A DNA stretch of 64,000 nucleotides from an uncultured Flavobacteriaceae bacterium (GTDB lineage: Bacteria > Bacteroidota > Bacteroidia > Flavobacteriales > Flavobacteriaceae), in assembly GCA_947497245.1 (NCBI GenBank), contig CANMFO010000001.1, forward strand, positions 1,302,001 to 1,366,000, read 5' to 3'. Numbering within the stretch: the stretch's first letter is position 1; every line of letters begins with the position of its first letter. A model generated the notes under the pieces. The model ran no database searches and had not been told where the DNA came from. It saw nothing but the letters and a program-made list of their open reading frames with translations. Below are positions 8,878 to 24,648 of the stretch, piece after piece. Both the position numbers and the translations under genes were made by a program.

Positions 8878-9178
8878 TAGTTTGTTTGTTGGCAACTATG
8901 AAGGCTAACGTTGGGTACATAAAGCGTTATGGCGTTTAGTCACCATAATTTTATATACATTGTTGGCCTTACGTTTTTATGATTGTATTGATCATTGATT
9001 TAAATTAAATAAAAAACTTACAGAAAAGTGGTATTGTAAATTATGTCTTGTCGAATTGGGTGATTCACGTCTGGAGGGAATTACCTCCTTCGTTGCCGAG
9101 TACCCGCTCGAACATGTTGAGAATGGAAAACCAATCATTTTAATTGATTGCTTAAAGAATAATTATGAACACTGAATG
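8878..9178. other. 301-bp intergenic stretch between lipoprotein and oxidoreductase genes
   Basis: It holds the attC-like dyad at 8903-8968 and, on the plus strand from about 9040 to 9174, an open frame without a start that reads LVELGDSRLEGITSF and later LIDCLKNNYEH before a TGA. That frame looks like the worn 3' end of a lost gene, but I recognise no family. No promoter could be assigned with confidence. Confidence 0.4.
8903..8968 (+). repeat. attC-like imperfect dyad 1
   Basis: Outer arms GGCTAAC (8903-8909) and GTTGGCC (8962-8968) are near-complementary, and an inner perfect stem TTATGG/CCATAA (8927-8932 / 8943-8948) continues the hairpin, with GTACATAAA facing TTTATATAC in between. Size (66 bp) and the RYYYAAC/GTTRRRY-like ends recall integron attC sites. 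No integrase was found. Confidence 0.5.
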
Positions 9179-10498
9179 CTATTCCTGCCATAATTTCCAT
9201 GGTGACCGATAATCAGGTTTTAGGAAGGTATTGGCTTCAGGTTCATTTGATATTACACCATCCGAATCGTTCCATTCCAGCTTTTTTCCCGTTCGGTATG
9301 CGATATTGCCCAAATGGGCCACAAGAGCCGCATCTCTCCCCATTTCAATAGTACAATTGGGATCTTTCCGATTTTTAATACATTCTAGGAAATTTGAGGT
9401 ATGGGCGTCCAATCCGCTTGATCTACTTTTACGGGGCGGTAGTGCTTCCGTTAGATATCTACCATTATGCTGAAGTGGCAACACTTTCCAACTTGCCCTG
9501 TTCATAGCCAAAATACCATTTTCGCCTATAAAGGCTACGCCTGGCTCACCCGATTCTTCCAAATATGGTGATGTGCCCATGCCCATAAATTGTTCCCAAA
9601 TAAAGCTGAAATTTCCAAAATCATAGACCGTTGTCAGCGTGTCCGGAGTTTCCGAAGCATTATTGGGAAAAGCAATTTTCCCACCAATTGCTACAACAGA
9701 TTTAGGTGCAGTGGCTTTCATGCCATGTAAAACCATATCCAGCATATGCACTCCCCAGTCGGTCATGAGGCCACCCGCGTAATCCCAGAAATACCGAAAA
9801 GAACCATGAAAACGATTTTGATTAAAAGGCCTTTTGGGTGCCGGCCCCAACCATCTATCGTAATCCACGCCCATGGGAGGTTCAGATTCCTCTACTACAT
9901 CAAAACCGCGACCGTAATTCACATTTGCCCAAGCTTTCACTTGCCGTATGTTGCCCAATGCACCGGTATCCAAATATTCAAAGGCCGAATGCCAATGTGG
10001 GTCGCTCCTTTGCCACTGACCTACCTGTACTACACTATTGTATTTACGCGCTGCTTTCACCATCAAATCAGCTTCGAAAATACTATTGGCCACCGGTTTC
10101 TCCACATACACATCTTTTCCAGCGGCACAGGCATCAATCATTTGAATACAATGCCAATGGTCTGGAGTACCGATAAAAACAGCATCCAATTCTTTTACTT
10201 TTAAAAGTTTACGATGGTCGTTAAAAGTTTTAGGGCGATTCCCTGTTTTAGCTTCGACTTCTTCCGCACGTTTTTCCAGCAAAACACTATCTACATCGCA
10301 AAGAGCGATACATGTAGTTCCCTTGTTTTTAAGAAAAGAACTGAGGTCTGCCCATCCCATCCCTCGAACACCTATGAGTCCAACTTTCACTGTTTCTTTA
10401 GCTATAATGGAGTTTTTGGCTGAAACTTGTCCTATGGGAACTGCTGTGGCAAGGGAGGCTGCGCTTACATTTTTAATGAATTTTCTTCTACTGGTCAT
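9179..10498 (-). CDS. Gfo/Idh/MocA family oxidoreductase, Tat-exported
   Basis: 439 residues. The N-terminus has a twin-arginine signal (SRRKFIKNVSAASLATAVPIG), so the folded protein with bound NAD(P) should be exported by Tat. The Rossmann part reads VGLIGVRGMGWADLSSF, followed by the family motif EKPVANSIFEADLMV near residue 120, and the substrate domain has WDYAGGLMTDWGVHMLDM with the catalytic-like Asp/His. Members oxidise or epimerise sugars and glycosides, and secreted Bacteroidetes members often accompany polysaccharide-use genes. It lies upstream of the six-hairpin lipoprotein gene on the same strand, with 301 bases between. Substrate unknown. Confidence 0.88.
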   Translation of the reverse strand: MTSRRKFIKNVSAASLATAVPIGQVSAKNSIIAKETVKVGLIGVRGMGWADLSSFLKNKGTTCIALCDVDSVLLEKRAEEVEAKTGNRPKTFNDHRKLLKVKELDAVFIGTPDHWHCIQMIDACAAGKDVYVEKPVANSIFEADLMVKAARKYNSVVQVGQWQRSDPHWHSAFEYLDTGALGNIRQVKAWANVNYGRGFDVVEESEPPMGVDYDRWLGPAPKRPFNQNRFHGSFRYFWDYAGGLMTDWGVHMLDMVLHGMKATAPKSVVAIGGKIAFPNNASETPDTLTTVYDFGNFSFIWEQFMGMGTSPYLEESGEPGVAFIGENGILAMNRASWKVLPLQHNGRYLTEALPPRKSRSSGLDAHTSNFLECIKNRKDPNCTIEMGRDAALVAHLGNIAYRTGKKLEWNDSDGVISNEPEANTFLKPDYRSPWKLWQE

Positions 10499-10792
10499 TT
10501 GGATGGTTTTGATTTTTTAAAGTACGGTTTTTCGAGCAAATATCACGGAATTATGCTAAAAACCACTCCTCTAAAAGCAGCATTTTATAGTCGTCTTGAA
10601 AATCAGGAAAACTGTCCAAAACTTCATGTTTTGAAATCTGTCCGTTGAACCATTCCCTTACCATATTCCCAGCGTTTGGTCGGTCAGAGTTTTGTTTGTT
10701 CCCGTTCATTCAGAAATGTGGGGCAACGGTCCGGCTATGCGTAGTTGTGCGGTTTAGCACTTAAGCTGCCTGTCGGCAGGCGGGCTTTGTTT
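10499..10792. other. 294-bp intergenic stretch with gene remnant and partial attC-like half-site
   Basis: On the minus strand, just above the oxidoreductase, a short frame reads NMVREWFNGQISKHEVLDSF and ends ...LLLEEWFLA-stop near 10555; it may be the 3' end of a decayed gene. At 10711-10740 there is a half-dyad starting CAACGGTCCGGCTATGCG, a form seen at gene 3' ends elsewhere in Bacteroidetes, and a small stem CTGCCTGTCGGCAG follows before the SDR stop. Nothing else is supported. Confidence 0.4.
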
Positions 10793-11734
10793 TTATTGAT
10801 TCCCGAATTCAGTTAAAGATACTTTTGCAGGACTAAATGAAATTCCTAAATCTTTTTTTGCTTCATCATTTTTATAAACAATATTGGCACTTCCATTGGG
10901 TTTCTCGCTATTCAGCATTTTGGTAATATCAGAGATTTTCCAGCTTTCACTACTTAATAAATAGTTTTTCCCGTGCAACCCTTTTTTAGTACTGCAACTA
11001 TAAATTCCATTGGCAACATCTTTTACATCGACTATTGCGAATTCCGTATCAGTGTCAAATAGCATTTGTACAAATGGATTAGGTGCTATTTTGTTTTTGA
11101 ATAAGTATTGTAAACCGGAAGAAGTAGAGTCTTCTCTCCGTGATAGTGATTTTCCCATTACAGCAACAGGTGAAACGCTTGTTAGTTCAAAATCAGTATT
11201 TGGATGCTCTTTAATAAATTTCTCTACAGTTTGATTAGCAATAAATTTTGCCTGTGCATAAGGATGGCTTTCTTCACTCATAAAAGGCTTGTCATTTTCA
11301 TCAATTGTGTCATTGGCATCTTTTCCTTCCGGAAGCATCGGGAAATTGGTGTTATATGCTGCTACGGATGCAATAAAAACTACCTTTTCAATTCCTGGCG
11401 TTTCATTTATTACTTCAAGAAAGTTTTCGGTTCCTTTAATCGTTGGGTCAAATAATTCTGTTTTAGGATCTTGCACGTCCAACTGAAAAGGTGTTCCGCC
11501 GTGAACAACTATTTCACATCCCTTCGTGAATTCTTTTAATTGATTTTTGTTTTCAACTTTTAAAGGAAGAATTTCAAGGTTTTCTGCATTCGGTAGTTTT
11601 TTCAAATGGTCATATTTTTCCGTTTTGGTAATATCGGTAGCAGAAACTCTGACCTTAAAACCTTCTTGCAAAAACTTTTTTGTAGTATGACTTCCGATGA
11701 AGCCCGAGCCACCAATAATTCCAACTGTTTTCAT
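10793..11734 (-). CDS. NAD(P)-dependent epimerase/dehydratase (extended SDR)
   Basis: 313 residues. The N-terminal Rossmann motif is GGSGFIGSH (residues 8-16), typical of extended short-chain dehydrogenases. The active-site pair is YAQAK around residue 165, preceded by the Ser of VVFIASVAAY. The layout is close to dihydroflavonol-4-reductase-like or NAD-dependent epimerase members, cytoplasmic, substrate not deducible. Base composition is AT-richer than the flanking core genes. The 5' side borders an attC-like region (11773-11910) and the 3' side a half-site, consistent with a cassette-type acquisition. Confidence 0.87.
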   Translation of the reverse strand: MKTVGIIGGSGFIGSHTTKKFLQEGFKVRVSATDITKTEKYDHLKKLPNAENLEILPLKVENKNQLKEFTKGCEIVVHGGTPFQLDVQDPKTELFDPTIKGTENFLEVINETPGIEKVVFIASVAAYNTNFPMLPEGKDANDTIDENDKPFMSEESHPYAQAKFIANQTVEKFIKEHPNTDFELTSVSPVAVMGKSLSRREDSTSSGLQYLFKNKIAPNPFVQMLFDTDTEFAIVDVKDVANGIYSCSTKKGLHGKNYLLSSESWKISDITKMLNSEKPNGSANIVYKNDEAKKDLGISFSPAKVSLTEFGNQ

Positions 11735-11772
11735 ATTTTCTATTTTTAATTAGTTATGTTTTTCTAAATAAA

Positions 11773-11910
11773 GGCTAACGGTTAGGCTAAGGTTCGTTGC
11801 TGTGATTCGTCCGAACCCCGATAGCTATGGGGGCAGCTGAACCTAAAGATAGCATTTTGCTCGGATTTCCGTTTAGGAAATCCGCAAGCAATTAATTTTA
11901 GGCATTGTTT
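11773..11910 (-). repeat. attC-like intergenic element 2 with nested stems
   Basis: Reading on the minus strand, the element begins with ACAATGCC and ends CCTAACCGTTAGCC. Inside are a perfect 9-bp stem CGGATTTCC/GGAAATCCG (11862-11884) extended by TTGC/GCAA, a GGTTC/GAACC pair, and the near-palindrome CCCCGATAGCTATGGGGG at 11816-11833. It lies at the 3' side of the 57-codon frame at 11916-12089, the position expected of a cassette tail. Confidence 0.5.
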
Positions 11911-11915
11911 TTACT

Positions 11916-12089
11916 TCACAACACCTCTTGGAATGTCAAATCGATTACTTGGCGCGTTAGGAGATAAAAGTTTTCAGTCCGCCTAAGTCGAGTTAGAAAC
12001 TCTACAGGCCACTCGGTTAAACGTTCTTCTTTGACATGGATATATTTTCCCGTTTGAGATTCATTGATTTGTTCCTTTTGCAGAATCAT
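11916..12089 (-). CDS. Small hypothetical protein, 57 residues
   Basis: ATG at 12089 opens a frame reading MILQKEQINESQTGKYIHVK, then EERLTEWPVEFLTRLRRTEN and FYLLTRQVIDLTFQEVL. Composition is charged and protein-like, with no signal peptide or membrane segment; I recognise no family. It may be a short intact gene or a remnant, since the frame continues open for nine codons above the ATG. It is divergent from the hypothetical gene at 12146 and is followed directly by attC-like element 2. Confidence 0.4.
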   Translation of the reverse strand: MILQKEQINESQTGKYIHVKEERLTEWPVEFLTRLRRTENFYLLTRQVIDLTFQEVL

Positions 12090-12145: not shown

Positions 12146-12457
12146 ATGACAGTTGACAAACTATCTTCGTATAACTATGGCATTACTGGTTTAAGATCTT
12201 TTTTTGACAGTAACTTCAATAAACCGACCGGGCTACAAACAAAGATTAATCCTAACGAAGAGCATTTTTTCTATATCACTATGCTCATTCACTTGCCAGA
12301 TCAACAGGGCTCTAAAGGAGGGGGCTCTACACGAGCAGGAGTTGTCTTGGAAGAACAAAATCTTTTTTGTAAAGTTAGCGTAGATCCGATTGGCACTAAA
12401 TTAAGTCCCATCGAACAATTTGTTTTGAAAAAATCAAAACAGCAATACTCAAGTTAA
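12146..12457 (+). CDS. Hypothetical protein, 103 residues
   Basis: MTVDKLSSYNYGITGLRSFF begins an apparently soluble protein with a basic C-terminus (QFVLKKSKQQYSS). A glycine-rich loop QGSKGGGSTRAG lies near residues 53-64. There is no signal peptide, membrane helix or motif that I can tie to a family. The gene stands alone between the 57-residue frame and attC-like element 3, which starts 46 bases after its stop. This is the arrangement of a one-gene cassette. Function unknown. Confidence 0.55.
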   Translation: MTVDKLSSYNYGITGLRSFFDSNFNKPTGLQTKINPNEEHFFYITMLIHLPDQQGSKGGGSTRAGVVLEEQNLFCKVSVDPIGTKLSPIEQFVLKKSKQQYSS

Positions 12458-12502
12458 AAATCCTCAGAAATATGTTCTTAAGATTAGTTGGAAAGCCAGC
12501 GC

Positions 12503-12664
12503 ACAACACAACCTATAAACAATACGGGCTTTGGGCTTAACCGAAAAGTCTGTGTATATTTATAAAGTTCGCACCCCGATAGCTATCGGGATGGGATTTC
12601 GCTATGTGCTAGGCGGAAAGCAAATGCTAGTTTGCGCCCGTACTGTTCATAGCCCAACCGTTGT
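12503..12664 (+). repeat. attC-like element 3 with nested REP-like palindrome
   Basis: The left arm 12503-12529 and right arm 12636-12664 pair imperfectly: both ends are ACAAC/GTTGT, the inner part shares CTAT-n-AACA-n-TACGGGC with its complement. The loop region contains the perfect palindrome CCCGATAGCTATCGGG at 12575-12590. The element fills the gap between two short plus-strand genes. Confidence 0.6.
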
Positions 12665-12693
12665 AACCTATTAAATAAAAATTAAAACCTTAT

Positions 12694-13194
12694 ATGCTTA
12701 GATTTATTTTTGTTCTTTTTGTGTCATTACTCTTTTCTTGTCAACAAGAAAAAACACCAACCCCCAACGAGATTAAGGAAACTCTCAAATCAATTGTCGT
12801 CGGAGAAACTTATGCTTACATGGAGAAAGATTATCAGAAATGGGCATCTTATTGGGACCATAGCGCTGATGTGTTACGACTAGATGTATCAAAAGCAGGT
12901 TTTGCACAAACAAAAGGTTGGGATAAAAATGGTGAAAATTTGGAAACATTTTTTAAAGAAAATCCTGAGCCGATAACTTCTACTTTCGTAAACTCCAATT
13001 ATCTTATATTTTTTGACGTCAATTTGGCTTGGGTCGCATTTGACCAAGCTTGGACAGGTCAATCAGGAGAAAAAACTGTGGCAAAAGCAACAGTTACTTT
13101 AGTTAAAAATGCAAATGATTGGAAAATCATATCATATACCGCCATTCAATATGAAGCAGAAGATCGAAATGTCGATACGTTAGAAAGAGAGTAA
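12694..13194 (+). CDS. Lipoprotein with SnoaL/DUF4440-like (NTF2) domain
   Basis: 166 residues. The signal peptide MLRFIFVLFVSLLFSCQQEK ends in a lipobox (LLFSC, Cys16). The mature part has the NTF2-like pattern of DUF4440/SnoaL proteins: a helix with ETYAYMEKDYQKWASYWD, then strands ending VTLVKNANDWKIISYTAIQYE. Members are small ligand-binding or enzyme-like pockets; here it is probably membrane-anchored in the periplasm. The specific role is unknown. It is a single-gene unit bounded by attC-like elements 3 and 4. Confidence 0.75.
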   Translation: MLRFIFVLFVSLLFSCQQEKTPTPNEIKETLKSIVVGETYAYMEKDYQKWASYWDHSADVLRLDVSKAGFAQTKGWDKNGENLETFFKENPEPITSTFVNSNYLIFFDVNLAWVAFDQAWTGQSGEKTVAKATVTLVKNANDWKIISYTAIQYEAEDRNVDTLERE

Positions 13195-13207
13195 TAAAGT
13201 AAAACTG

Positions 13208-13354
13208 GCTACAACAACGGCCATAATTCAGCTTGGCCGATTCCATAAACTGAAAAATATTAACTTTAAACCAGCTTGGTTTCTAGCCCGAAAATCCTAA
13301 CGGATTTCCACACAACGGAACCATACACGTACACGTTGCGCTTCATTTTGTAGC
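13208..13354 (+). repeat. attC-like element 4
   Basis: Perfect 7-bp outer arms GCTACAA (13208-13214) and TTGTAGC (13348-13354), with CAACG/CGTTG inside them. The left side carries the motif ACAACGGCCATAATTC, seen in related form after the genes ending at 24417 and 42991. It begins 13 bases after the lipoprotein stop. Confidence 0.5.
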
Positions 13355-13404: not shown

Positions 13405-14910
13405 ATGTGGTTTAATAAACTGAAGTATCTATCCATATGTATTGCGCTTACTTGTTTAAGCAACCATGGTTTTTGCCAGGTAGCCGACACTGTTTCTTCT
13501 CGATACAATGTCACCTTAAAAGAAGCCCATATCGGAAGTTTGGAAATAGATACCATGCTACTCAATAGCTATAGGACGGTTCCGGAAAACATTAAACAAT
13601 TCTATCTTGATGCCAGAGGGGTATTTGAGAAAAAAAAGGTCGATTTCACGAACAAGCATATTGTAGAGGCCGCGGTAAACAATGACATGGGTTTAATGGG
13701 TGGACCCATGCTGGGGGATATAACAGAGCATGGGGTAAGCATTTGGTTCAGGCCATTGAATGAAATGCCAATTCGTATAAAAGTAATTGCTTCGGGCAGT
13801 GGTGAAGAGAAAAATTACACCTTAAGACCTGTTGCCGCAGGAAAGGAACAACGAATACTTTTAAATGATCTATCCCCTTCAACGAAGTATAAATATGTAG
13901 TTACATCACAAGATATCAGACTATCGGAAGGCGCTTTTCAAACCACGCCAAAAATTGGCGAAAAGAACCAGGTTAGGATAGTATTTGGATCAGGTTTTCA
14001 TAAAATAGGCATTCATAATCCAAACCTGATCAACACAATACTGGAAAGAAATCCACACGCAATGTTACTATTAGGGGACATTGCGGTTGATGACAGAGAG
14101 AACAATTTTAGCATGCACAGGTGCGATTATTTACTTCGGGATATCTCGGAACCATGGAAGAAACTCTCGGCCAATGTTGCCCTATATGCAAGTTGGGATG
14201 ATCATGATTATCTAAACAACGACCTTAGCGGTGTGCCAGAACGGTTTTCTGAAGATGACAGGAAAGAACTCCGCTCATTATGGCTTCAAAACTGGAATAA
14301 TCCCCAACATGATGTAGAAGGAATTTACTTCAATACCCGGATAGGTCAGGTTGAATTGATAATGCTCGACACAAGGTCTTGTCGTAAGATAGGGGAAAGA
14401 GGTAGATATGGTTCCTATTTGGGTACGGAACAGCAAGAATGGTTAAAAAGTATTTTGGAAAATTCCACAGCGCCTTTTAAGGTTATTTCCAGCGGAACAA
14501 TGTGGAGTGATTATATTACAAATGGTAAAGATTCATGGGGTACATGGGATACTTTGGCAAGGGAAGAAATTTTTGATCTTATAGAAACAGAAAACATACC
14601 CGGTGTTTTGTTGATTAGTGGAGACCGACATGGAGCAAGAGGGTTTACAATTCCAAGAGCATCTGGATTTAAATTATATGAATTTGAGGCCGCATCACTG
14701 GGAGGTGTGCCTGGACCGCCAGCAATGGCCAATGATAAATCAAACCAAATTTTTGGGTATCATGGCAAAGGATTAAAAGCTTTTGGTGAATTTACTTTTA
14801 AGTCGGAAGGAAACGATCCTCAGGTTACATTTAGGTTAATTGATGAAGTTGGGAATATCATGGAAGAACATACATTATCGTATAATATGCTGTCGGCACA
14901 AAAACAATAG
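13405..14910 (+). CDS. PhoD-like alkaline phosphatase family protein, exported
   Basis: 501 residues. A signal peptide (KLKYLSICIALTCLSNHGFCQ) suggests export. The N-terminal Fn3-like domain (about 95-185) precedes a metallophosphatase domain with LLLGDIAVDDREN, ASWDDHDYLNND, MLDTRSCRK and LLISGDRHGARGF, which are the metal-binding blocks of the PhoD family. PhoD enzymes are Ca/Fe-dependent phosphomono- and diesterases in phosphate scavenging. Here the signal peptide is not clearly of the Tat type, unlike classic PhoD, so the identity as alkaline phosphatase is by family only. It is a stand-alone gene followed by attC-like element 5. Confidence 0.85.
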   Translation: MWFNKLKYLSICIALTCLSNHGFCQVADTVSSRYNVTLKEAHIGSLEIDTMLLNSYRTVPENIKQFYLDARGVFEKKKVDFTNKHIVEAAVNNDMGLMGGPMLGDITEHGVSIWFRPLNEMPIRIKVIASGSGEEKNYTLRPVAAGKEQRILLNDLSPSTKYKYVVTSQDIRLSEGAFQTTPKIGEKNQVRIVFGSGFHKIGIHNPNLINTILERNPHAMLLLGDIAVDDRENNFSMHRCDYLLRDISEPWKKLSANVALYASWDDHDYLNNDLSGVPERFSEDDRKELRSLWLQNWNNPQHDVEGIYFNTRIGQVELIMLDTRSCRKIGERGRYGSYLGTEQQEWLKSILENSTAPFKVISSGTMWSDYITNGKDSWGTWDTLAREEIFDLIETENIPGVLLISGDRHGARGFTIPRASGFKLYEFEAASLGGVPGPPAMANDKSNQIFGYHGKGLKAFGEFTFKSEGNDPQVTFRLIDEVGNIMEEHTLSYNMLSAQKQ

Positions 14911-14942
14911 GATAGATTATATTTAAAGTAAAAAAAACGAAA

Positions 14943-15076
14943 GCACAACATTTTGTATGGGCAATGGCAGGGAAAGTTCGAAATTAAAAGCTTGTAGCCC
15001 ACCTAAACCCCATAGCAATTTGACAGAATAGTGCCGCACATTCTGCCGCTGCCCATGCAATCTACCGTTAGCTGGC
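14943..15076 (+). repeat. attC-like element 5 (strongest stem)
   Basis: Left arm TTGTATGGGCAATGGCAG (14953-14970) and right arm CTGCCGCTGCCCATGCAA (15043-15060) pair over 18 positions with 15 Watson-Crick pairs, two GU pairs and one mismatch. Outside the arms are GCACAAC and CCGTTAGC, resembling the R-box ends of attC. It starts about 33 bases after the phosphatase stop. Confidence 0.65.
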
Positions 15077-15183
15077 ATTAAAAAAACGTGCTAGCGATAA
15101 ACAAAAAAATAAATAGAAAGCAGTTGGGTTTATTGGCTAAGTCCAACCATTGGCCGGAAGCAAAGAATGACAGTATAAAAAAG

Positions 15184-15861
15184 ATGCGAATGGAAATTAT
15201 AGAAGATGAAAACTTTGACCATAAAAAAGTTGTGATAGATGGATATGACAGATGTTCAACGGACTATTCCAAAGTACGAAACAAGGAAAATGAACCTTCT
15301 TTGAAATTATTAACTGATAAGTTAACCAATAAAGATGCGAAAGTATTGGATCTAGGGTGCGGGAATGGCATTCCTGTTTCCAAAATGCTTTCTAGATATG
15401 TATTAACGGGTATTGATATTTCTGAAAAACAAATTGAACAGGCGAAAGAAAATGTTCCCAATGCTGAATTTATTTGCAAGGATATTTCGGAATTCGAATT
15501 TGAAAATAACCATTGGGATGCCATTGTCAGTTATTATGCGATTTTTCATTTGAAAAAAGAAGAGCAATTGATACTATTTGATAAAATTTCAAAGGGGTTA
15601 GTGCCAAATGGTCACTTTCTTTTAACCCTGACATTACACAATGAACCAGGTTATACAGAAGATGATTTTTTTGGGGTCAAGATGTTTTGGGAAAACTATT
15701 CGCTAAAAGAATATGAAAAGATTTTTACGGACAAAGGAATGAAGATTTTATATTCAGGAATGTTGGAGCACGGATATAACAGGGAATACGATGGAGGGGA
15801 TGAAATACACCCTGTCTTGTTCGGTTTTAAGCCGGGGGCTAACACTGAACAAAAACAATAG
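15184..15861 (+). CDS. Class I SAM-dependent methyltransferase
   Basis: About 225 residues from the ATG at 15184 (MRMEIIEDENFDHKKVVIDG); the frame is open back to a GTG at 15088, but that part abuts the attC-like repeat and looks unlike the family. Motif I is VLDLGCGNGIPVSK, followed by GIDISEKQIEQAKENVPNAEF and IVSYYAIFHL, the usual SAM-binding layout of methyltransferase family 11/25. Substrate not predictable; cytoplasmic. Its C-terminus runs into GGCTAACACTG, similar to attC ends, so the gene may have captured part of a recombination site in its last codons. Confidence 0.85.
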   Translation: MRMEIIEDENFDHKKVVIDGYDRCSTDYSKVRNKENEPSLKLLTDKLTNKDAKVLDLGCGNGIPVSKMLSRYVLTGIDISEKQIEQAKENVPNAEFICKDISEFEFENNHWDAIVSYYAIFHLKKEEQLILFDKISKGLVPNGHFLLTLTLHNEPGYTEDDFFGVKMFWENYSLKEYEKIFTDKGMKILYSGMLEHGYNREYDGGDEIHPVLFGFKPGANTEQKQ

Positions 15862-16346
15862 CCGGAATAGTGGTGAAACAAAGGCCTTCCGAAAGGTTTT
15901 TATGTATTTTCAAAGTCCGCCAATTGGGCAATTAAAAAAAGAAAAATAATTGTAAAACCTACCTCCCACCGCTGCCGCAAGATTGTATCTTGTGGCAAAA
16001 CAATCACCATCGCGAATACGCACCAAAGACCATTTCCAAGCTGTTTCAGATTATACATTGGGCATGTCGTAAATATATAGAATGTTTGATCTTCAAATAA
16101 AAAACCACAGCTTTTTGACTGTGGTTCTTCCATTCTGTTTCTCGCTCTTAAGGCCACTGGTTGCAAACTGGCGGCAGCAAGGGGTGAACTTTGCCTGCGG
16201 CCAGATAAGATCCATTGCCGCGGATTTTCCACACGAAAAACCTCTTGTAACTGCCATTGCCTTGGCCACTGACCAGGAAACGTCTTTTGTACACTTTCCG
16301 CCACCGTTCACCCCTCAAAAATTACAGCGCATTTAGGAAAATAATA
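15862..16346. other. About 485 bp without a convincing gene
   Basis: Frames on both strands here lack family character. A hairpin AACCACAG/CTGTGGTT (16103-16126) followed on the minus strand by a T-run looks like a terminator for a minus-strand transcript that no longer has an obvious gene. A 9-bp inverted repeat GGGGTGAAC (16181-16189) and GTTCACCCC (16306-16314) bounds a 134-bp segment, and GGCCACTG occurs directly at 16152 and 16264. It could be a decayed small element. Confidence 0.4.
16096..16126 (-). terminator. Terminator-like hairpin on the minus strand
   Basis: On the minus strand the stem AACCACAG / CTGTGGTT with an 8-base loop is followed by TTTTTT. No intact minus-strand gene reads into it. 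Confidence 0.55.
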
Positions 16347-18575: not shown

Positions 18576-18899
18576 ATGCGAAGAGATGTTTTTCAGGCAA
18601 TTGCCGACCCAATACGAAGAGATATTATCGAACTATTAGCGGAGGAAGCACTTACCGTAAACTCGATAGCTGAAAAATTTGATATCAGCAGACCTGCGAT
18701 CTCCAAACATTTAAAAATATTAAATGAATGTGGAATAATCGATTATAACCAAATAGGTAGAGAGCGTTTGTGTCTGATCCAACCACAAAAATTGATTCCG
18801 GCTTTTCTATGGATAAAACAATACAATAAACTTTGGGAGGATAGAATAGACTCTTTTGAAAATTACATCAATGAATTCCAAGAAAAAAATAAAAAATGA
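18576..18899 (+). CDS. ArsR family transcriptional regulator
   Basis: 107 residues, a single winged helix-turn-helix domain: DVFQAIADPIRRDIIELLAEE, then the recognition region FDISRPAISKHLKILNECGII. The Cys metal-binding motif of ArsR/SmtB (ELCVCDL) is absent, so it belongs to the non-metal subgroup that often precedes AHSA1/SRPBCC genes. It overlaps the downstream SRPBCC gene by four bases (ATGA). The palindromic operator at 18554-18569 suggests autorepression. Confidence 0.92.
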   Translation: MRRDVFQAIADPIRRDIIELLAEEALTVNSIAEKFDISRPAISKHLKILNECGIIDYNQIGRERLCLIQPQKLIPAFLWIKQYNKLWEDRIDSFENYINEFQEKNKK

Positions 18900-19348
18900 A
18901 TGATATAAAAAACAGAACATTAACAATTGAAAAAAACTTTAATGCGTCTTTGCAGTTCGTTTGGGACGCTTGGACAAAATCTGAACATATTGTGAAATGG
19001 TGGGCACCAAAAGGAATCGACATTAAGGTTATCGAACACGATTTTAAAATTGGTGGAAAATGGAAGTATTCTGCCCAAATGCCAGATGGAAACGAATATG
19101 TAACTGAGGGAACTTATACCGAGATTGTTAAACTAAAGAAAATCGTCACGTCTGCGGATTTCAAACCAATGACTGAAAATGTAAAAATACAAGTATGTTT
19201 TGAAGCAGATGGAGAAAAAACAAAATTCACATTCAGTGTAATCCACGCTACACAAGAATACTGTAAGCAACAAGAAGAATTGGGATTCTATAATGGTTGG
19301 GGTTCTGTATTGAACAGATTAGATGAATTTTTAAACCATAACAAATAA
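18896..19348 (+). CDS. SRPBCC (AHSA1-like) domain protein
   Basis: 150 residues: a signature N-terminal strand RTLTIEKNFNASLQFVWDAW, then TKSEHIVKWWAPKG, which is the AHSA1/Aha1-C-like hallmark. The fold binds hydrophobic ligands; ligand unknown. Second gene of an ArsR-SRPBCC-DUF1059 operon: start codon overlaps the ArsR stop, and the third gene follows after 15 bases. This pairing of ArsR with AHSA1 proteins is very common. Confidence 0.92.
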   Translation: MNDIKNRTLTIEKNFNASLQFVWDAWTKSEHIVKWWAPKGIDIKVIEHDFKIGGKWKYSAQMPDGNEYVTEGTYTEIVKLKKIVTSADFKPMTENVKIQVCFEADGEKTKFTFSVIHATQEYCKQQEELGFYNGWGSVLNRLDEFLNHNK

Positions 19349-19363
19349 ATAAAACATTCGATT

Positions 19364-19603
19364 ATGAAAACAATGACTTGCAACCAATTAGGAGGAGCGT
19401 GTGAAAAAGAATTTACCGCGAATACTTTTGAAGAAATAGCAGAAATGAGTAAAAAACACGGTATGGAAATGTTTCAGAAAAATGACAAACCTCATCTAGA
19501 AGCAATGAACAAGATGAAAGAATTAATGAAATCTCCAAATGCTATGAAGGAATTTCACGAAAGCAAAATAAGGGAATTTAACAACCTTCCCGCTGATCAA
19601 TAA
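19364..19603 (+). CDS. DUF1059 family small protein
   Basis: 79 residues starting MKTMTCNQLGGACEKEF. The CxxxGG-C pattern and the EEIAEMSKKHGMEMF helix match DUF1059, small proteins of unknown function with two conserved Cys. Usually the family is about 55-60 residues; here a C-terminal helical extension (MNKMKELMKSPNAMKEF) adds about 20. It is the last gene of the ArsR operon. Confidence 0.82.
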   Translation: MKTMTCNQLGGACEKEFTANTFEEIAEMSKKHGMEMFQKNDKPHLEAMNKMKELMKSPNAMKEFHESKIREFNNLPADQ

Positions 19604-19613: not shown

Positions 19614-19673
19614 TTGTTGCCAACAAGGTATAAAAGCAATAGCGGTTTGGGGGTTGCTCAAATCGCTTTTTCT
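19614..19673 (+). terminator. Palindromic tail and terminator after the ArsR operon
   Basis: TTGTTGCCAACAA (a perfect odd palindrome, 19614-19626) begins ten bases after the stop. It is followed by a stem AGCGGTTTG / CAAATCGCT (19641-19667) and a T-rich tail. The motif TTGCCAACAA recurs at 20216 and 47656 just behind other genes. Confidence 0.7.
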
Positions 19674-19696
19674 TAAATACTTATCTTGCAGTTTGA

Positions 19697-19729
19697 AACA
19701 GTAGTGCATTTTTATCCGCTACTGTTTTT
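19697..19729 (+). terminator. Second hairpin before the cupin gene
   Basis: Stem AACAGTAGTG / CGCTACTGTT (one GU pair) with a 10-base loop, followed by TTTTTG. It makes a tandem terminator with the preceding one. Confidence 0.7.
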
Positions 19730-19768
19730 GTATTGAACATTGGCAACGATATAAACACAACCAAACAA

Positions 19769-20203
19769 ATGGAACCAAAAATTGTAAAAAATGATGCAGG
19801 TCACAAGTTAAATGTCCTTGGGGACAATCAGGTCATCAAACTCTCCGCTAAAGACACCAATGGGCAATTCTCATTGATTGAGCAAAATAACGATCCCGGA
19901 ATGGGAATACCGCCCCATGTACATGAGAATGAAGACGAAGTGTTTCACGTATTGAATGGAAAAGTGGAAATGATCGTCGGAGAGGAATCGACAACCCTAT
20001 CTGCCGGCGACATGATTTTTTGCCCTAAGGGAATTCCGCATTCCTGGCGCGTAGTTGGAGAAGAAAAAGCTAGAGCGATGTTGAGCATTTTTCCAGCTGG
20101 ATTGGAAGAAATGTTTGAAGAGTTATCAAAATTGCCGGCCGGACCGCCCGATATGGAAAAGATTGGTGAAATTTGTGGAAAATACAAGTTGCGGTTTGTT
20201 TAA
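19769..20203 (+). CDS. Cupin domain protein
   Basis: 144 residues from the ATG at 19769 (MEPKIVKNDAGHKLNVLG); a TTG start at 19733 falls in the hairpin region. Cupin motif 1 reads GIPPHVHENEDEVFHVLNG and motif 2 reads GDMIFCPKGIPHSWRV, retaining His/His/Glu/His for a divalent metal. A quercetinase-like or mannose-isomerase-like small cupin is possible; the substrate is unknown. Monocistronic. Confidence 0.9.
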   Translation: MEPKIVKNDAGHKLNVLGDNQVIKLSAKDTNGQFSLIEQNNDPGMGIPPHVHENEDEVFHVLNGKVEMIVGEESTTLSAGDMIFCPKGIPHSWRVVGEEKARAMLSIFPAGLEEMFEELSKLPAGPPDMEKIGEICGKYKLRFV

Positions 20204-20215
20204 ATAAAAATACGA

Positions 20216-20280
20216 TTGCCAACAATACCTCTAGCAAATAGGGCATAAAGCGCTAAATTTGAGGATTTGGCCCTATTAGC
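20216..20280 (+). repeat. attC-like element 7 behind the cupin gene
   Basis: Starts with TTGCCAACAA 13 bases after the stop, with a perfect 8-bp stem AATAGGGC (20237-20244) / GCCCTATT (20270-20277). The remainder of the gap up to 20480 shows small GC-rich repeats around CCTGCAGGCAGG but no gene. Confidence 0.45.
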
Positions 20281-20480
20281 CAATTCCGCCATCCGGATGC
20301 CTCAGGGGATTGGGCTTGGTAATTAAAAAAATGAAAACGTTCACAAAACCTGCAGGCAGGTAAAAAGCCCTGGCTACGTTTGCGGACCACGCCCAAAAGC
20401 GTAGCGGTCTGAAACAAAAAGCCTCCCTGCCCGCCTTACTTGCCAAATACTAAGCGGGGTACCCCATTAAAAAAGGAAAA

Positions 20481-21308
20481 ATGACAAACAAACAGGAAGA
20501 AATATTTACATTAAACAATGAAGTGAAGATGCCATCCATTGGTCTTGGCGTTCTTTTTGCCGAAAATAACGGTGAAGTAGAAAATGCTGTTCTTTCAGCT
20601 TTACAAAATGGATATCGAAAAATAGATACTGCTTCTGCGTATGGTAATGAAGAAGGGGTAGGAAAGGGAATAAAAGAAAGCGACATCGAAAGAAATGAAA
20701 TCTTTTTGACCACTAAGGTTTGGAATACCGAACAGGGATATGATAAAACGTTGTCTTCATTTGAACAAAGTTTGGAGCGCCTTCAAACGGATTATGTTGA
20801 CCTCTATTTGGTACATTGGCCTGTTAAGAGTAAATATAAGGAAACCTATACCGCATTGGAAAGATTATATTCCGAGGGAAGGGCAAAGGCTATCGGGGTT
20901 TGTAATTTTAGCATTCAACAGTTAGAAGATTTGATGGAGCACACCCAAATCATACCCGCACTCAATCAAGTAGAGATGCATCCCCATTTGAGTCAGAATG
21001 AATTGCTTGAATTTTCCAAAAAACATCATATTCAACTGGAAGCATGGCGACCCATTATGATGGGTGAGGTATTAAAAATCCCTGAATTGGTCGAAATAGG
21101 GAAATCCCATTCAAAATCTGCTGCCCAAATCGCATTGCGGTGGTTAATTCAGCGAGGAGTCGCTGCAATTCCAAAATCTGTAAATCCAAAAAGAATTGCT
21201 GAAAATTTTGGCGTATATGATTTTGAACTAAGGGCAAGTCAAATGGAAACCATTGAAACACTAAATCAAAATAGAACATTGGGTGAAGACCTATCCCATA
21301 TAGAATAA
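20481..21308 (+). CDS. Aldo/keto reductase
   Basis: 275 residues, a (beta/alpha)8 NADPH-dependent oxidoreductase. The catalytic tetrad is Asp49 and Tyr54 in DTASAYGNEEGVG, Lys79 in LTTKVW and His112 in YLVHWP. The C-terminal IPKSVNPKRIAEN binds the NADPH 2'-phosphate. The sequence is closest in style to the AKR5 group (2,5-diketo-gluconate reductase and methylglyoxal reductase). It is monocistronic; substrate range is usually broad. Confidence 0.94.
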   Translation: MTNKQEEIFTLNNEVKMPSIGLGVLFAENNGEVENAVLSALQNGYRKIDTASAYGNEEGVGKGIKESDIERNEIFLTTKVWNTEQGYDKTLSSFEQSLERLQTDYVDLYLVHWPVKSKYKETYTALERLYSEGRAKAIGVCNFSIQQLEDLMEHTQIIPALNQVEMHPHLSQNELLEFSKKHHIQLEAWRPIMMGEVLKIPELVEIGKSHSKSAAQIALRWLIQRGVAAIPKSVNPKRIAENFGVYDFELRASQMETIETLNQNRTLGEDLSHIE

Positions 21309-21487
21309 GAAAAGACGGAGGACAACAATATAGTGCCCATTGTGACCTAAAACTCGTAACGCCGCATATGTGAGACCGTTAAGTGCAATTTGACCAAAGA
21401 ACGAACCATCGGCTATTGTCAAAGTCCACCTTTATATGATCCGTTTTTTGCAGTGGTTAAAAACCAGACCTCGTTGACCTCTGGAGA

Positions 21488-21847: not shown

Positions 21848-21851
21848 AGTA

Positions 21852-21917: not shown

Positions 21918-21955
21918 ACAAAAATTCACAATAATAACATCAAACCTCTTACAAA

Positions 21956-22588
21956 ATGAATTTAATGGATGCATTGAATTGGCGGTATGCCGTAAAAAAA
22001 TATACCCAACAAAAAGTATCGAATGAAAATGTAGATCAAATATTGAGGGCGATCGCCCTGTCCGCATCCTCTGCGGGCATTCAACCCTATCGTGTTTTCG
22101 TGATCAACAATGATCGCATACGGCAAAAACTGGCAAAAGATTCTTTCAATGCACAGATAACGGAAGCTTCCCATCTTATTGCATTTGCAGCTTTCGACGC
22201 CATTTCCAAAGAACATATCACCGATTTTATTCGGTTCATGGCTAGTGAAAGGGAGCTTCCAGAAGCCGCCTTGGCGGAATACAAAAACGCACTGGAACAG
22301 CACCTTTTGACGAGAACGGACGAAGAAAACTTTATCTGGTCATCACAACAGGCCTATATCGCCCTAGGCACCGGGTTGATCGCCGCTGCCGAGGCCAAAA
22401 TAGACGCCACTCCCATGGAAGGTTTCAATTCAGGGGCACTGGATGAATTGTTGAACCTGAAGGAAAAAGGGTTAAAAAGCGTATTGCTATTGGCTTTGGG
22501 CTATCGGGATGCCCAAGAGGATTTTTTGGCAAATCAAAAGAAAGTTAGATTGCCATTAAGTGAACTGGTGACCGAAATCACCGAATAA
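21956..22588 (+). CDS. NAD(P)H-dependent nitroreductase family oxidoreductase
   Basis: 210 residues, the NfsB/YdgI-like flavoenzyme fold. Conserved parts are NWRYAVKKYTQQKV near the N-terminus, RAIALSASSAGIQPYRVFVI (FMN phosphate binding), and QQAYIALGTGLIAAAEAKIDATPMEGF plus the C-terminal LALGYRD. It reduces nitro or quinone compounds with FMN. First gene of a two-gene unit with the DoxX-like gene (20 bases apart), divergent from the HxlR regulator. Confidence 0.94.
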   Translation: MNLMDALNWRYAVKKYTQQKVSNENVDQILRAIALSASSAGIQPYRVFVINNDRIRQKLAKDSFNAQITEASHLIAFAAFDAISKEHITDFIRFMASERELPEAALAEYKNALEQHLLTRTDEENFIWSSQQAYIALGTGLIAAAEAKIDATPMEGFNSGALDELLNLKEKGLKSVLLLALGYRDAQEDFLANQKKVRLPLSELVTEITE

Positions 22589-22608
22589 CCGCTAAAAGCA
22601 ACTAGGAC

Positions 22609-22986
22609 ATGGAAAAAAAGAACAAAATAATCTACTGGATCTTTACAGGATTATTGACGGCCGCGATGCTCACATCGGTCACCAGGTATTTAATGGACCT
22701 TGAAGGGTTTCGCAATCATTTTGTGAATTTTGGATACAACGGACGCCTGGTAATTCCCCTTGCCCTTGCCAAAATATTGGGCGTAGGAGCCATTGTCAGC
22801 AACAAGAGCCGATTTCTTAAAGAATGGGCGTACGCAGGATTCTTTTTTAACTTTTTATTGGCCTTGGAAGCACATATCGCTGTAAATGACAACCACTATT
22901 TTGGGCCGATCATCGCACTTGTTTTGTTGGCCGGTTCCTATATTTTCTATCGAAAAGTATATGTGGCCGATCAATCGGTCAATTGA
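22609..22986 (+). CDS. DoxX-like membrane protein (first copy)
   Basis: 125 residues with four predicted membrane helices: IYWIFTGLLTAAMLTSVTRYL, LVIPLALAKILGVGAIV, WAYAGFFFNFLLALEAH and GPIIALVLLAGSYIFYRK. This is the DoxX_2 family, small inner-membrane proteins, often next to redox regulators. It follows the nitroreductase gene and is presumably co-regulated by the HxlR protein. Confidence 0.88.
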   Translation: MEKKNKIIYWIFTGLLTAAMLTSVTRYLMDLEGFRNHFVNFGYNGRLVIPLALAKILGVGAIVSNKSRFLKEWAYAGFFFNFLLALEAHIAVNDNHYFGPIIALVLLAGSYIFYRKVYVADQSVN

Positions 22987-23242
22987 CCCCCATATGCGGA
23001 TTTTACAATCACTGGAATTTATCCTTCCTATCAGCCTTTCAAATTCACATCTTTAAAATTTTGAAAATCAGCATATTATAAATCATCAAGTATGGCGATT
23101 TGAATACCAAGAGGCCGCCGGACGGGAAATCCTCGCTATTCCCTAACTTTACACTGCGTGGGCAGCCGTACCAGGTGAAGAACGCTCCAGTATATGAATT
23201 CATTTATTCCTGGGGGCCATTAAATGACCGATCAAAATAAAG

Positions 23243-23785
23243 ATGGAATTGGAATCCGAACGATTAAAACTACAAGAAGTCCGTTGGGACGATCTAGCGG
23301 ATATCCATAGACTGCATTCCAATCCAGAAGTAGATGAGTACAATACGCTTGGTATTCCAAAAAACATGGAAGAAACCCGAGAAGTTGTTCGTCCAATGAT
23401 CGATGATCAAAAATCGGAAAAACGAAAAACATATTTTTGGAAAATCACAACTAGGGAAACCGAGGAATTTATTGGTATAGCCGGTATGAACCTATCATTG
23501 AACAGGTTTAAACTTGGGGAAATTTACTACAAATTATTGCCCTCTTATTGGGGAAATGGATATGCGACCGAAGTGTCAAAGACCTTGATAAGGTTCGGAT
23601 TCGATAATCTTAAGCTCCATAAAATAGAGGCCGGCGTTGCTACGGGGAACATTGCTTCCATGCGGGTTCTTGAAAAATCGGGAATGACAAGGGAAGGTTT
23701 GAGAAGGAAAATACTTCCGATCCGGGGGGAATGGAAGGATAATTATCATTATGCAATTGTTGAAGATGATCCGATGGATTATTAG
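23243..23785 (+). CDS. GNAT family N-acetyltransferase (RimJ/RimL type)
   Basis: 180 residues: N-terminal ESERLKLQEVRWDDLADIHRLHSNPEV, central GEIYYKLLPSYWGNGYATEV for acetyl-CoA pyrophosphate binding, and HKIEAGVATGNIASMRVLEKSGM. This is the Acetyltransf_3 pattern seen in ribosomal-protein and spermidine-like acetyltransferases. Monocistronic, with 256 bases upstream in which I see no gene or clear promoter. Substrate unknown. Confidence 0.93.
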   Translation: MELESERLKLQEVRWDDLADIHRLHSNPEVDEYNTLGIPKNMEETREVVRPMIDDQKSEKRKTYFWKITTRETEEFIGIAGMNLSLNRFKLGEIYYKLLPSYWGNGYATEVSKTLIRFGFDNLKLHKIEAGVATGNIASMRVLEKSGMTREGLRRKILPIRGEWKDNYHYAIVEDDPMDY

Positions 23786-23961
23786 AAAATGAAAGTATGG
23801 ACAGGGTGTAATGCATACCCTCCGGGATATGCCCCATACACAAAACGCTATGGCAATTTCAGGTAAGGATATAAAGCGTTCAACAGGGATTACTTAAATT
23901 CGATATCACATTTGCCCTGGAATTGGCCGGGCGCCATAATCAATGAATAAATGCTCTAAAA

Positions 23962-24417
23962 ATGAAAGAGCCCGATAGCAAAACCGTTTGGCAGTTCGAG
24001 CATTCGGTGGAATGCCATTCCAACAAATCCTTTGCGTGGTCTTTTTGGACAGATGTATCCAATTGGGAACGCCTAGAGGGAAAGGCGGTAGAATGGATTA
24101 AACTCGATGGAACCTTTGCCGTGGGCAGCTCGGGTGCCACAAAAACACCGGGACAAGATCCCCATTATTGGGAAATAACACAACTTGATCCCGAATGCTC
24201 CGCTACCATCGAGATGCCCTTGGAGGGTGCCGTGTTTCACAATGTGATCAGAATGGAATCCCTTGGTCCTGATCGGACACGGATTACCCAACTTTTGGGC
24301 TTGACCGGCACAAAAGCCCTTGATTTTACCGAGGGCATGCAAATGTTCGAGACAAGCGCTCCCCAGGGCCTTGCCAACTTGGCAAAAGCTATCGGCTCGG
24401 CTTATAAGGGAAGTTAG
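23962..24417 (+). CDS. SRPBCC family protein
   Basis: 151 residues. The N-terminal strand WQFEHSVECHSNKSFAWSFW with TDVSNWERLEGKAVEW matches polyketide-cyclase/SRPBCC proteins, and the long C-terminal helix ends LANLAKAIGSAYKGS. A hydrophobic ligand-binding pocket is expected; ligand unknown. Followed after 24 bases by the degenerate tail ACCGCCCATAATTCGGCC (24441-24458), related to the tails at 13211 and 43001. Confidence 0.82.
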   Translation: MKEPDSKTVWQFEHSVECHSNKSFAWSFWTDVSNWERLEGKAVEWIKLDGTFAVGSSGATKTPGQDPHYWEITQLDPECSATIEMPLEGAVFHNVIRMESLGPDRTRITQLLGLTGTKALDFTEGMQMFETSAPQGLANLAKAIGSAYKGS

Positions 24418-24648
24418 CCCAACACTCCCTGGACAAAAGAACCGCCCATAATTCGGCCCTGGCCGTAGCACGCTACTAAAAATTTCCTACATTAGATCAT
24501 TGTCCCCAATAAAATAGTTCGATTTCGCCAAATCGGTCTCAACCAAAGCCAAATCGTTACCTTCAATGACCTGAAAAACGGAAAGGATAAAATTATATGG
24601 ACAGATTGAACAATTTTGAAAACAGGATCGGTCCCTGAAGAGCAGTCT

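Follow-up and report, generated by a model that had tools for sequence, protein, structure and literature searches.

Probable decayed remains of a chromosomal integron in a Flavobacteriaceae genome, and the Xer-like integrase without an IntI insert that accompanies its relatives

Canonical integrons exchange cassettes at G^TT, have extrahelical bases in the attC stem and use sites folded from the bottom strand; the consensus of their R boxes is RYYYAAC/GTTRRRY. Clusters of attC sites without an integrase are known as CALIN. The I2 helix of IntI is stated, in the available text of one study (eLife 2020, PMC7790495), to be necessary for cassette capture and to be found in no other protein. The 'Integron-like' subgroup of simple tyrosine recombinases includes insertion-less members, for which the accessible part of the source reports no cassette arrays or sites (PMC8138268). 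The IntegronFinder 2.0 paper gives, in the portion available, one complete Bacteroidetes integron, in Salinibacter (PMC9024848).

The window is the whole 64-kb stretch of DNA analysed here, from a genome placed by inference in the Flavobacteriaceae. It very probably represents what decay has left of a chromosomal integron; the class to which this integron belongs is common in this family and also present in other Bacteroidota. An earlier note on the stretch had proposed an integrase-less, fossil cassette array with an unlinked integrase; this proposal is borne out by homologous arrays in sister species, the signature at cassette junctions, the synteny of the locus and a truncated integrase on another contig (C5) of the same genome. 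Like the CALIN, which are decayed integrase-less clusters, the window has six sites at E<=0.05, all within 10.7-20.5 kb (Table 1), and no detected integrase remnant.

The arrays of the sister species are intact and mostly have one gene per site, with some two-gene cassettes. For example, an 18-kb contig (C16 of G007) contains at least 18 model matches on a single strand, between small genes. These arrays resemble the sedentary chromosomal integrons of the IntI type (TIGR02249, attI, attC) in their one-strand order, their mostly single-gene cassettes each with a hairpin site, the attI-like place beside the integrase, the cassette-specific bases at a boundary that falls at G^TT, and the bias towards the bottom strand. 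They differ from the IntI integrons in the boxes, stem and length of the sites, in the lack of the IntI insert, and in that the integrase usually reads toward the array; in G002 it is divergent from it. A PADLOC search with 10 array proteins gave zero matches.

The hairpin sites span roughly 75-210 bases, an upper length unlike that of IntI integrons. AAC and GTT are constant in them, yet both were part of the criteria by which sites were picked; the full boxes RYYYAAC/GTTRRRY, which the earlier note had named for integron cassettes in general, occur in 2/40 and 3/40 sites. A stem of 15 pairs aligns without gaps across 32 sites, and the L stem of these sites contains no extrahelical bases. Two stem positions have A opposite C on the top strand (in 32/32 and 31/32 sites), which gives G.T on the bottom strand. 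The stem covaries, with 93 double-change cells against 24 in shuffled alignments and a score of 0.491 against 0.105 (0/500 shuffles as high); the shuffles were not exceeded in how many pairs have double changes (8 against 6.9) or in how many pair types occur. Folding of both strands, a check that the earlier note had named, showed the bottom strand to be more stable in 33/40 and 32/34 sites (control 30/60), and in 40/40 and 25/26 sites when the arms alone were folded. These sets were 40 of the 56 sites of the first junction test and 34 sites of eight loci, 26 of which served for the arms. The two fixed A.C positions go with the better-folding bottom strand.

These properties bear on the strongest alternative, that the Xer-like integrase carries out classical tyrosine recombination on double-stranded sites, between core sites in inverted orientation, and that a folded single strand plays no part. 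The enzyme resembles XerA/XerC/XerD and has no I2 insert, which the literature ties to single-strand recombination, and both points would suit such a mechanism. However, double-strand recombination would need neither the covariation of the long stem nor the greater stability of the bottom strand; this reading is therefore considered unlikely, although it keeps some weight.

The integrase gene has 345-390 codons in most genomes and is longer in some. The Xer recombinases (XerA/XerC/XerD; NF040815) provide the closest sequence model, to which the protein aligns in one stretch; whereas the TIGR02249 matches are split in two pieces that omit profile positions ~180-243. The IntI-specific insert (I2) is absent from 23/23 aligned Bacteroidota integrases. 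In the phylogenetic tree, which included 17 named Bacteroidota integrases (those of loci L152, L158, L160, L162 and L183 come from loci without a site match at E<=0.05), eight IntI controls formed a separate clade with support 100/99; four of these controls were confirmed by TIGR02249 and four were labelled from the insert itself. The cut-off of NCBIfam NF040815, entitled 'site-specific tyrosine recombinase/integron integrase', was reached by 3/8 full-length proteins scanned. The best PDB matches of an AlphaFold model were IntI (2a3v) and XerA (5hxy). Unlike Xer, the integrase has an N-terminal extra part of ~100 residues, without a Pfam match and poorly modelled alone (pLDDT 55), and is associated with attI-like places and cassette arrays. 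The same genomes also hold further Xer-like genes of ~300 codons.

An attI-like place, with 9-10 of 10 bases complementary to the first detected R'', was found 47-354 bases past the integrase stop in 8/8 loci. It was the best-ranked place in seven of the eight and the third best in L157. Such a place is also present in G001 (10/10) and G002, and was seen by eye on contig C5 of the window's own genome. Among 80 integrase loci there were 36 model matches at E<=0.05, of which 35 lie downstream of the integrase and on its strand.

In a sample of 149 genomes of the family, at least 126 have sites and at least 101 the integrase family; up to 16 candidates were scored per genome with strict filters, so the site counts are lower bounds. 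Among the matches listed, 96 genomes had both, 30 sites only, five the integrase only and 18 neither (Fisher p 1e-6). A match to the integrase model at E<=1e-50 was present in 115 genomes; 14 with only E 1e-50 to 1e-57, the level of Xer genes, were left uncounted. One of these 14, G049, may have a true partial copy of the integrase. In the 30/149 site-bearing genomes without a recognised integrase, the enzyme may have been lost, may be too diverged, or may be another one. The canonical integron integrase (TIGR02249, NCBI cut-off) was found in 0/149 genomes, a survey that includes the window's own genome and, of the sister genomes, G003 only. An IntI-type recombinase, for which the earlier note had suggested a search of the rest of the genome, is not seen above the cut-off, and the integrase associated with the sites is of a non-IntI kind. 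A canonical IntI integron, with its integrase elsewhere or missed and the Xer-like gene as a bystander, would follow the same array logic, and a complete one exists in the Bacteroidetes Salinibacter ruber, as given in part of PMC9024848. It is nevertheless very improbable here, considering the TIGR02249 result, the deviating boxes of the sites, and the non-IntI gene, which co-occurs with the sites and in the examined loci adjoins the attI-like place.

The cassette junctions provide evidence of movement. The seven opening bases of a site matched the end of the previous site at six or more positions in 27/41 junctions, against 2/41 for its own end, and 0/20000 permutations were as high. The mean match was 5.34/7 to the previous end, 2.39/7 to the own end and 2.50/7 at random. 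This test used 56 sites, which gave 41 junctions; sites with a stem score <16 were unused, and a site with no upstream neighbour within 2.6 kb gave no junction. Some mis-set 5' ends were retained, which lowers the score, and two contig-start sites with impossible lengths contributed no junction. In seven non-training loci from other genera and taxa (33 sites, of which three had E 0.28-0.99; the remaining matches of the integrase loci were left out), 20/26 junctions reached at least 6/7 with the previous site and 0/26 with the own end. A match between the opening bases and the end of the previous site is what cassettes leave behind when they move as circles that are cut at G^TT. Moreover, the same two-gene cassette stands behind unrelated sites in L085 (G007) and L095 (G008), where 10/40 bases are equal before the GTT and 250/293 aligned bases after it. 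Two further related genes, L086:6901-7695 and L093:1093-1878, were rejected as evidence of mobility, since the L086 copy has no directly bounding site.

Passive MITE-like repeats, spread by a transposase and resembling an array through secondary insertion behind genes, might also leave related sites that are single or paired, as occurs elsewhere in the own genome. However, a self-copying repeat keeps both ends together, whereas here the two ends belong to different cassettes, and 35/36 sites follow the integrase on its strand. The MITE explanation needs the junction signature to be an artefact, which the non-training loci and the shared cassette oppose, and it is judged extremely unlikely.

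Table 1. Sites, genes and tRNA in the window (positions in the 64-kb stretch; R1, covariance model trained on 32 array sites from sister species).
Feature	Position	Strand	Evidence
tRNA-Met (CAT), marking the integron locus by synteny	6591..6665	+	ARAGORN; synteny of flank and tRNA
Weak candidate recombination site, GGCTAAC/GTTGGCC dyad (8903-8968 in the earlier note)	8899..8972	-	R1 11.7 bits, E 0.08
Partial recombination site	10717..10893	-	R1 17.4 bits, E 0.012
NAD-dependent epimerase-like gene, probable cassette gene	10793..11734	-	Pfam PF01370; between two minus-strand sites
Recombination site	11769..11917	-	R1 40.3 bits, E 3.9e-8
Small cassette gene, no Pfam match	12146..12457	+	best site comes next
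Recombination site	12497..12670	+	R1 114.5 bits, E 6.6e-26; R'' at AAC 12505, R' at GTT 12660
166-aa cassette gene, no Pfam match	12694..13194	+	junction 5/7 with preceding site
Diverged recombination site (13208-13354 in the earlier note)	13205..13345	+	R1 8.5 bits only; junction 5/7
PhoD-like phosphatase gene, cassette gene	13405..14910	+	Pfam PF09423
Recombination site	14939..15077	+	R1 23.7 bits, E 1.1e-4 (filters off); junction with preceding site 5/7
SAM methyltransferase gene, cassette gene	15088..15861	+	Pfam PF13649
Decayed recombination site, overlapping the end of the preceding gene	15845..16053	+	R1 34.0 bits, E 1.3e-6
Recombination site, R' mutated (ATTGGCAACG for GTTGGCAAC)	19614..19749	+	R1 24.3 bits, E 2.7e-4; fold z -4.99
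Cupin gene, cassette gene	19733..20203	+	Pfam PF07883; junction 5/7 with preceding site
Recombination site	20213..20466	+	R1 32.0 bits, E 3.9e-6; 24.7 bits filters off
Aldo/keto reductase gene, possible cassette gene	20481..21308	+	Pfam PF00248
Doubtful site remnant	21316..21388	+	R1 13.6 bits, E 0.1 (window), 0.029 (filters off)

Within the window, a run of R1 with the filters off (8-26 kb) added one site, at 14939-15077, to the six; whereas 400 kb of the same contig gave no match at E<=0.05 and a single one at E<=5 (13.2 bits, E 0.78). When scanned for the AAC...GTT motif only, the window had 13 dyads against 22 in the reversed-sequence control, so the dyads as first described are not distinctive by themselves, and this generic scan was dropped as evidence. 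Most of the gene tails described as attC-like at 10.7-20.5 kb are integron-type sites; those after 17574 and 24417 have no R1 support (nearest match 24471-24566, 9.9 bits, E 0.21). Of the elements regarded as clearest, 12503-12664, which has the top R1 score among the 14 sites of the genome, and 14943-15076 hold; whereas 13208-13354 and 8903-8968 score low. Position 11916 is not the end of a gene: the element listed there is on the minus strand, as is the gene 10793-11734, upstream of which it lies.

Most sites in the window are weak (8.5-40 bits). Three plus-strand junctions keep 5/7 signature bases and one minus-strand junction 2/7, the latter being the best found for gene 10793-11734, where the junction signature is not seen. 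The match at 10717-10893 has a clear 3' half (GCATAGCCGGACCGTTGCCCCACATTT) and an unclear 5' half, and extends into the end of this gene. The site at 11769-11917 has copies at 80-84% in G001, G008 and G009, and that at 20213-20466 matches a site on contig C5 at 75% over 110 nt. On contig C5, the site that comes first behind the integrase remnant matches the first 100 nt of 13208-13354 at 86%. The element at 8903-8968 matches a stretch of G003:C5 at 78% over 83 nt, this stretch not being an established site. No convincing copies of the window elements were found in 400 kb of their own contig, and in Rfam the tRNA alone reached the gathering score. The best whole-genome BLAST match of one window element was set aside, as by eye it seems to be within a coding gene. 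Some single elements fold no better than shuffles (14940-15082, z 0.26; 20214-20321, z -1.03). Ordinary terminators, or palindromic repeats that are scattered and lie behind genes by chance, would agree with these folds and with the motif-only scan. As an explanation of the tails they are hardly credible, however, as the sites stand in arrays next to a single integrase family, terminators would not produce a cross-junction signature, and 400 kb of the same contig had no match at E<=0.05.

The expected pattern of one gene per tail is seen at 12.1-15.9 kb. It fails at 18576-19603, a three-gene block, and beyond 21.4 kb; neither this block nor the region 21.4-25 kb looks like cassettes. The genes of the block recur in sister genomes, where the surrounding 2-3.5 kb contain no model match. 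Homologues of the window genes, in 15 loci of ~2-3.5 kb, had no flanking site below E 0.9, so the present window genes are not seen as cassettes elsewhere.

The left flank of the window with an identical tRNA-Met is followed, after ~0.6 kb, by the integrase gene in G001, G006 and G007 (3/9 sister species), and leads into sites in G009; no integrase was seen at this flank in 5/9 sister genomes. In G002, G003, G004 and G008 the integrase is at other places. By synteny the window locus is an integron locus. The window gave no integrase or Zn-ribbon remnant (best E 0.08); elsewhere in the genome, on contig C5, a truncated integrase is followed by three cassettes.

The system appears integron-like in its working, yet it fails the membership test for IntI, and on these genomic data it might be regarded as a variant of integrons. 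In its intact form it has an Xer-like recombinase gene, usually followed within a few hundred bases by an attI-like site; behind this come the cassettes in a row, most of them with a single gene and each closing with a hairpin site. The bottom strand of the site would fold and be cut by the integrase at G^TT, and the gene with its own site would leave as a circle and re-enter at attI or at another site. After such an exit and re-entry, the bases behind the GTT would be part of the next cassette, with whose own R'' they would pair. Strand choice may be aided by the two fixed A.C positions, which are G.T on the bottom strand and would stand in for the extrahelical bases that IntI reads with its I2 helix. 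We infer both that recombination occurs at these sites and that this integrase performs it. In the present genome the tRNA-Met locus would have lost its integrase, and the cassettes left behind would be decaying.

A wider reading, which we favour with some reserve, is that these are members of a second integron lineage, which would be widespread in Flavobacteriaceae and occur in other Bacteroidota as well. Its Xer-like integrase, which has no I2 helix, would capture cassettes at sites folded from the bottom strand, the strand being marked by two G.T pairs rather than by extrahelical bases. As the integrase lies outside the IntI clade, single-strand capture would then have evolved without I2 or before it. 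No earlier report of such a system was found in the full-text literature, a scope outside which preprints and most subscription journals fall. The genomic traces of cassette exchange, together with the associated I2-less integrase, make the origin of single-strand recombination directly testable. They also suggest that integrons are common in what is probably the family Flavobacteriaceae, in contrast to the single complete Bacteroidetes case in the available part of PMC9024848, and that the integrons of this family may hold a large unstudied reservoir of mobile genes.

In the sister genome G007, contig C16 (18 kb, locus L085) is lined with small genes, almost all in the same orientation; between them stand 18 or more inverted-repeat elements of the kind seen in the window. 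Further arrays were found in G001:C5, G007:C10, G008:C40, G008:C45-C47 and the single-contig genome G002. Many of them lie on short contigs, as would be expected if the repeated sites break assemblies. The sites have conserved 3' ends (..CATAGCCGAACC|GTT, which was also the search motif used to find array sites); the bases after GTT differ between cassettes. A Pfam match was absent in six of the ten array cassette proteins tested.

If these are integron cassettes, they would move in circular form, with the cut at G^TT. The post-GTT bases of one site would then be part of the following cassette, and would pair with the R'' (the 5' end, at AAC) of that cassette's own site. The seven bases before AAC were compared in 41 junctions, with the 5' site ends picked by the inner stem and independent of these bases. 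With the bases that follow GTT in the previous site, read as reverse complement, they agreed at a mean of 5.34/7, and 27 junctions reached 6 or 7; against the site's own end the mean was 2.39 (2/41), and random pairs gave 2.50. None of 20000 permutations gave as high a sum. Seven non-training loci from other genera or unnamed taxa gave 5.81 for the previous end vs 3.04 for the own end (20/26 vs 0/26; 0/20000 permutations). This signature is the recombination logic of integrons, and it is hard to get by other routes. Moreover, a two-gene cassette is common to L085 and L095 (G008), with protein identities of 80 and 90%; its flanking sites are unrelated up to GTT (10/40 bases equal), whereas the sequences agree at 250 of 293 aligned positions starting with GTT. 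L085 and L100 also have a gene in common (71%), and in both the same bases, GTTGCCAGTAATTT, follow the GTT of sites that differ in type, but in this pair the sites are alike too.

The inner stem of 15 positions is gap-free in 32 aligned sites. Double changes affect eight stem pairs and amount to 93 cells vs 24 in shuffles (0/500), and the covariation score was 0.491 vs 0.105 when shuffled (0/500) and at most 0.130 in slid versions. By two coarser measures, the number of double-changing pairs (8 vs 6.9) and that of pair types, the sites were not above the shuffles. At two stem positions A stands opposite C (32/32 and 31/32 sites), with G.T on the other strand. The bottom strand is the better fold in 33/40 genus sites and 32/34 sites of other loci, vs 30/60 in a random control; for the arms alone it is better in 40/40 and 25/26. 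Canonical integron sites differ in having the RYYYAAC/GTTRRRY consensus and extrahelical bases. Boxes of this consensus, which an earlier note had given for integron cassettes, are rare here (RYYYAAC in 2/40 and GTTRRRY in 3/40 sites), and no extrahelical bases were found in the sites. Most sites of Rufibacter (L161:12089-16619) have only ~75 bases, close to the size of classical attC sites, whereas flavobacterial sites have up to ~210.

A single family of Xer-like recombinases (the integrases) accompanies the sites. In G001, for example, GTTGTAGCAC stands after the integrase gene; next come the first cassette and then a site that opens with GTGCTACAAC (10/10 complementary). All 8 named loci tested have, at a distance of 47-354 bases past the integrase stop, a place that is complementary to the first detected R'' at 9-10/10 bases. 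This attI-like place is the best-matching one in seven of them; L157 has two later places matching equally or better, which are probably cassettes missed by the site model, a covariance model trained on array sites of sister species. Applied to 80 integrase loci taken from named records, the model gave 36 matches (E<=0.05) in 13 loci, 35 of these matches downstream of the integrase and on its strand. The 44 loci among the 80 titled as phyla other than Bacteroidota, with taxa counted by hand from titles, had no site at E<=0.05 (best E 0.21). G002 is an exception, in which integrase and array are divergent with the attI-like place between them. The N-terminal ~100 residues of the integrases are predicted to be beta-rich and have no Pfam match, and the open frames in L188 and L183 are far longer (683 and 675 codons). 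A small gene divergently adjoins the integrase in the genome of the window, in G001 and G007, and in Winogradskyella, Seonamhaeicola, L154 and Rufibacter loci; the Rufibacter copy has 32-35% identity. A weak DUF2116 match below the cut-off points to a probable treble-clef protein, possibly a regulator or recombination partner.

Coordinates of features in the window and in other loci
Feature	Locus	Coordinates	Strand	Remark
tRNA-Met	window	6591-6665		within the conserved left flank (1-6672)
Palindrome of CCCCGATAGCTATCGGG type	window	11816-11833		inside a site
Palindrome of CCCCGATAGCTATCGGG type	window	12574-12590		inside a site
Small gene beside integrase	L104	396-773	-	
Small gene beside integrase	L083	18470-18868	+	
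Small gene beside integrase	L134	8239-8619	-	
Integrase N-terminal part	L131	14281-14580	+	and homologues
Array cassette genes	L085	2895-3254, 5882-6331, 6541-7392, 10026-10580		Imm33-like, DMP19-like, DUF4238, DUF6985 proteins

The profile of canonical integron integrases (IntI), TIGR02249, matches the integrases in two pieces, skipping profile positions ~180-243. Two full-length integrases scored 206 and 185 bits and six more 191-217, against a cut-off of 265 bits; four true IntI scored 443-488 bits in one piece. Three of eight full-length integrases reach the cut-off of NCBIfam NF040815 (XerA_Arch). Residues 208-241 of the solved Vibrio integron integrase 2a3v are unmatched by the integrases, whereas the structures of XerA, an XerC-like protein and XerD align without such a break. 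An AlphaFold model of the integrase (pLDDT 85) had 2a3v and XerA 5hxy as its best PDB matches. In an alignment of 43 proteins the I2 insert is missing from 23/23 Bacteroidota integrases. In the midpoint-rooted tree of these proteins, where branching among the non-IntI groups is without support, the eight IntI group in a separate clade with support of 100/99; four of the eight had been labelled by the presence of the insert. The Bacteroidota integrases fall outside this clade, and therefore do not look like IntI with the insert lost. By the membership test, the system is not an IntI integron.

The inverted-repeat tails that the earlier note saw behind accessory genes at 8.9-24.5 kb of the window did not stand out as bare dyads: a scan for AAC...GTT dyads alone gave 13 in the window vs 22 in the reversed control. 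Folding of the elements gave mixed results, and no convincing copies were found within 400 kb of their own contig. On these results the pattern could have been chance. In a DNA search of ten same-genus genomes, parts of the elements at 12.5, 11.8, 13.2 and 20.2 kb recur elsewhere, many times within short stretches of other genomes, which shows that the tail pattern is not chance. The site model found six sites (E<=0.05) in the window, all within 10.7-20.5 kb, and 14 in the whole genome, five of them in the window; the 10.7-kb site was under threshold in the latter search. A 400-kb part of this contig gave it no site at E<=0.05. Signature bases are kept at 5/7 in each of three plus-strand window junctions and at only 2/7 in the minus-strand junction. 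The sites at 10.7 and 11.8 kb are on the minus strand and those from 12.5 kb on are on the plus strand, an arrangement that suggests an inversion. The CCCCGATAGCTATCGGG-type palindromes also occur elsewhere on this contig (L022); they might be mobile or terminator-like palindromes inserted in site loops.

The left flank of the window with its tRNA-Met is kept, whole or partly, in nine sister genomes. The integrase starts ~0.6 kb after the identical tRNA-Met in G001, G006 and G007, and sites follow it in G009. No integrase was seen at this flank in the other five; G002, G003, G004 and G008 have it at other places. In the Winogradskyella and Seonamhaeicola loci a tRNA-Met lies ~3 kb upstream of the integrase, and the genes preceding it are conserved. 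Given this synteny, the most fitting reading of the window is that of an integron locus which has lost its integrase. On contig C5 of the same genome, an integrase truncated to 176 codons is accompanied by an attI-like place and three cassettes. tRNA-Gly and tRNA-Leu genes, not tRNA-Met, adjoin the integrase in G008 and G004 (L133:11220-11699, L135:12466-12720), and a tmRNA gene does so in L154. The integron platform may prefer tRNA-like loci.

In the part of the IntegronFinder 2.0 paper concerned with Bacteroidetes, only In0 elements are given as known earlier, and one complete integron is now added, from Salinibacter ruber (PMC9024848). The relevant passages of three other papers name Bacteroidota or the Bacteroidetes/Chlorobi group as integron-bearing, without details (PMC9668308, PMC8618304, PMC2426708). 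Titles and abstract starts in the full-text literature, a scope outside which bioRxiv and most subscription journals lie, gave no report of cassette arrays in Flavobacteriaceae or of I2-less integrons; an earlier description may exist elsewhere.

Across 149 genomes of the family from 148 genera, sites (E<=1e-5) occur in 126 and the integrase family (E<=1e-60) in 101; at 1e-50 the latter are 115, 14 of them with matches no stronger than those of Xer genes. None of the 149 has a canonical IntI above the cut-off. Both components are present in 96 genomes, sites only in 30, the integrase only in five and neither in 18 (Fisher p 1e-6, ignoring genome size and kinship). The sampled family is probably the Flavobacteriaceae, as the nearest named integrase comes from an uncultured Maribacter MAG. 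The system very probably functions like an integron, and its Xer-like integrase is likely the enzyme for cassette recombination, acting on folded strands.
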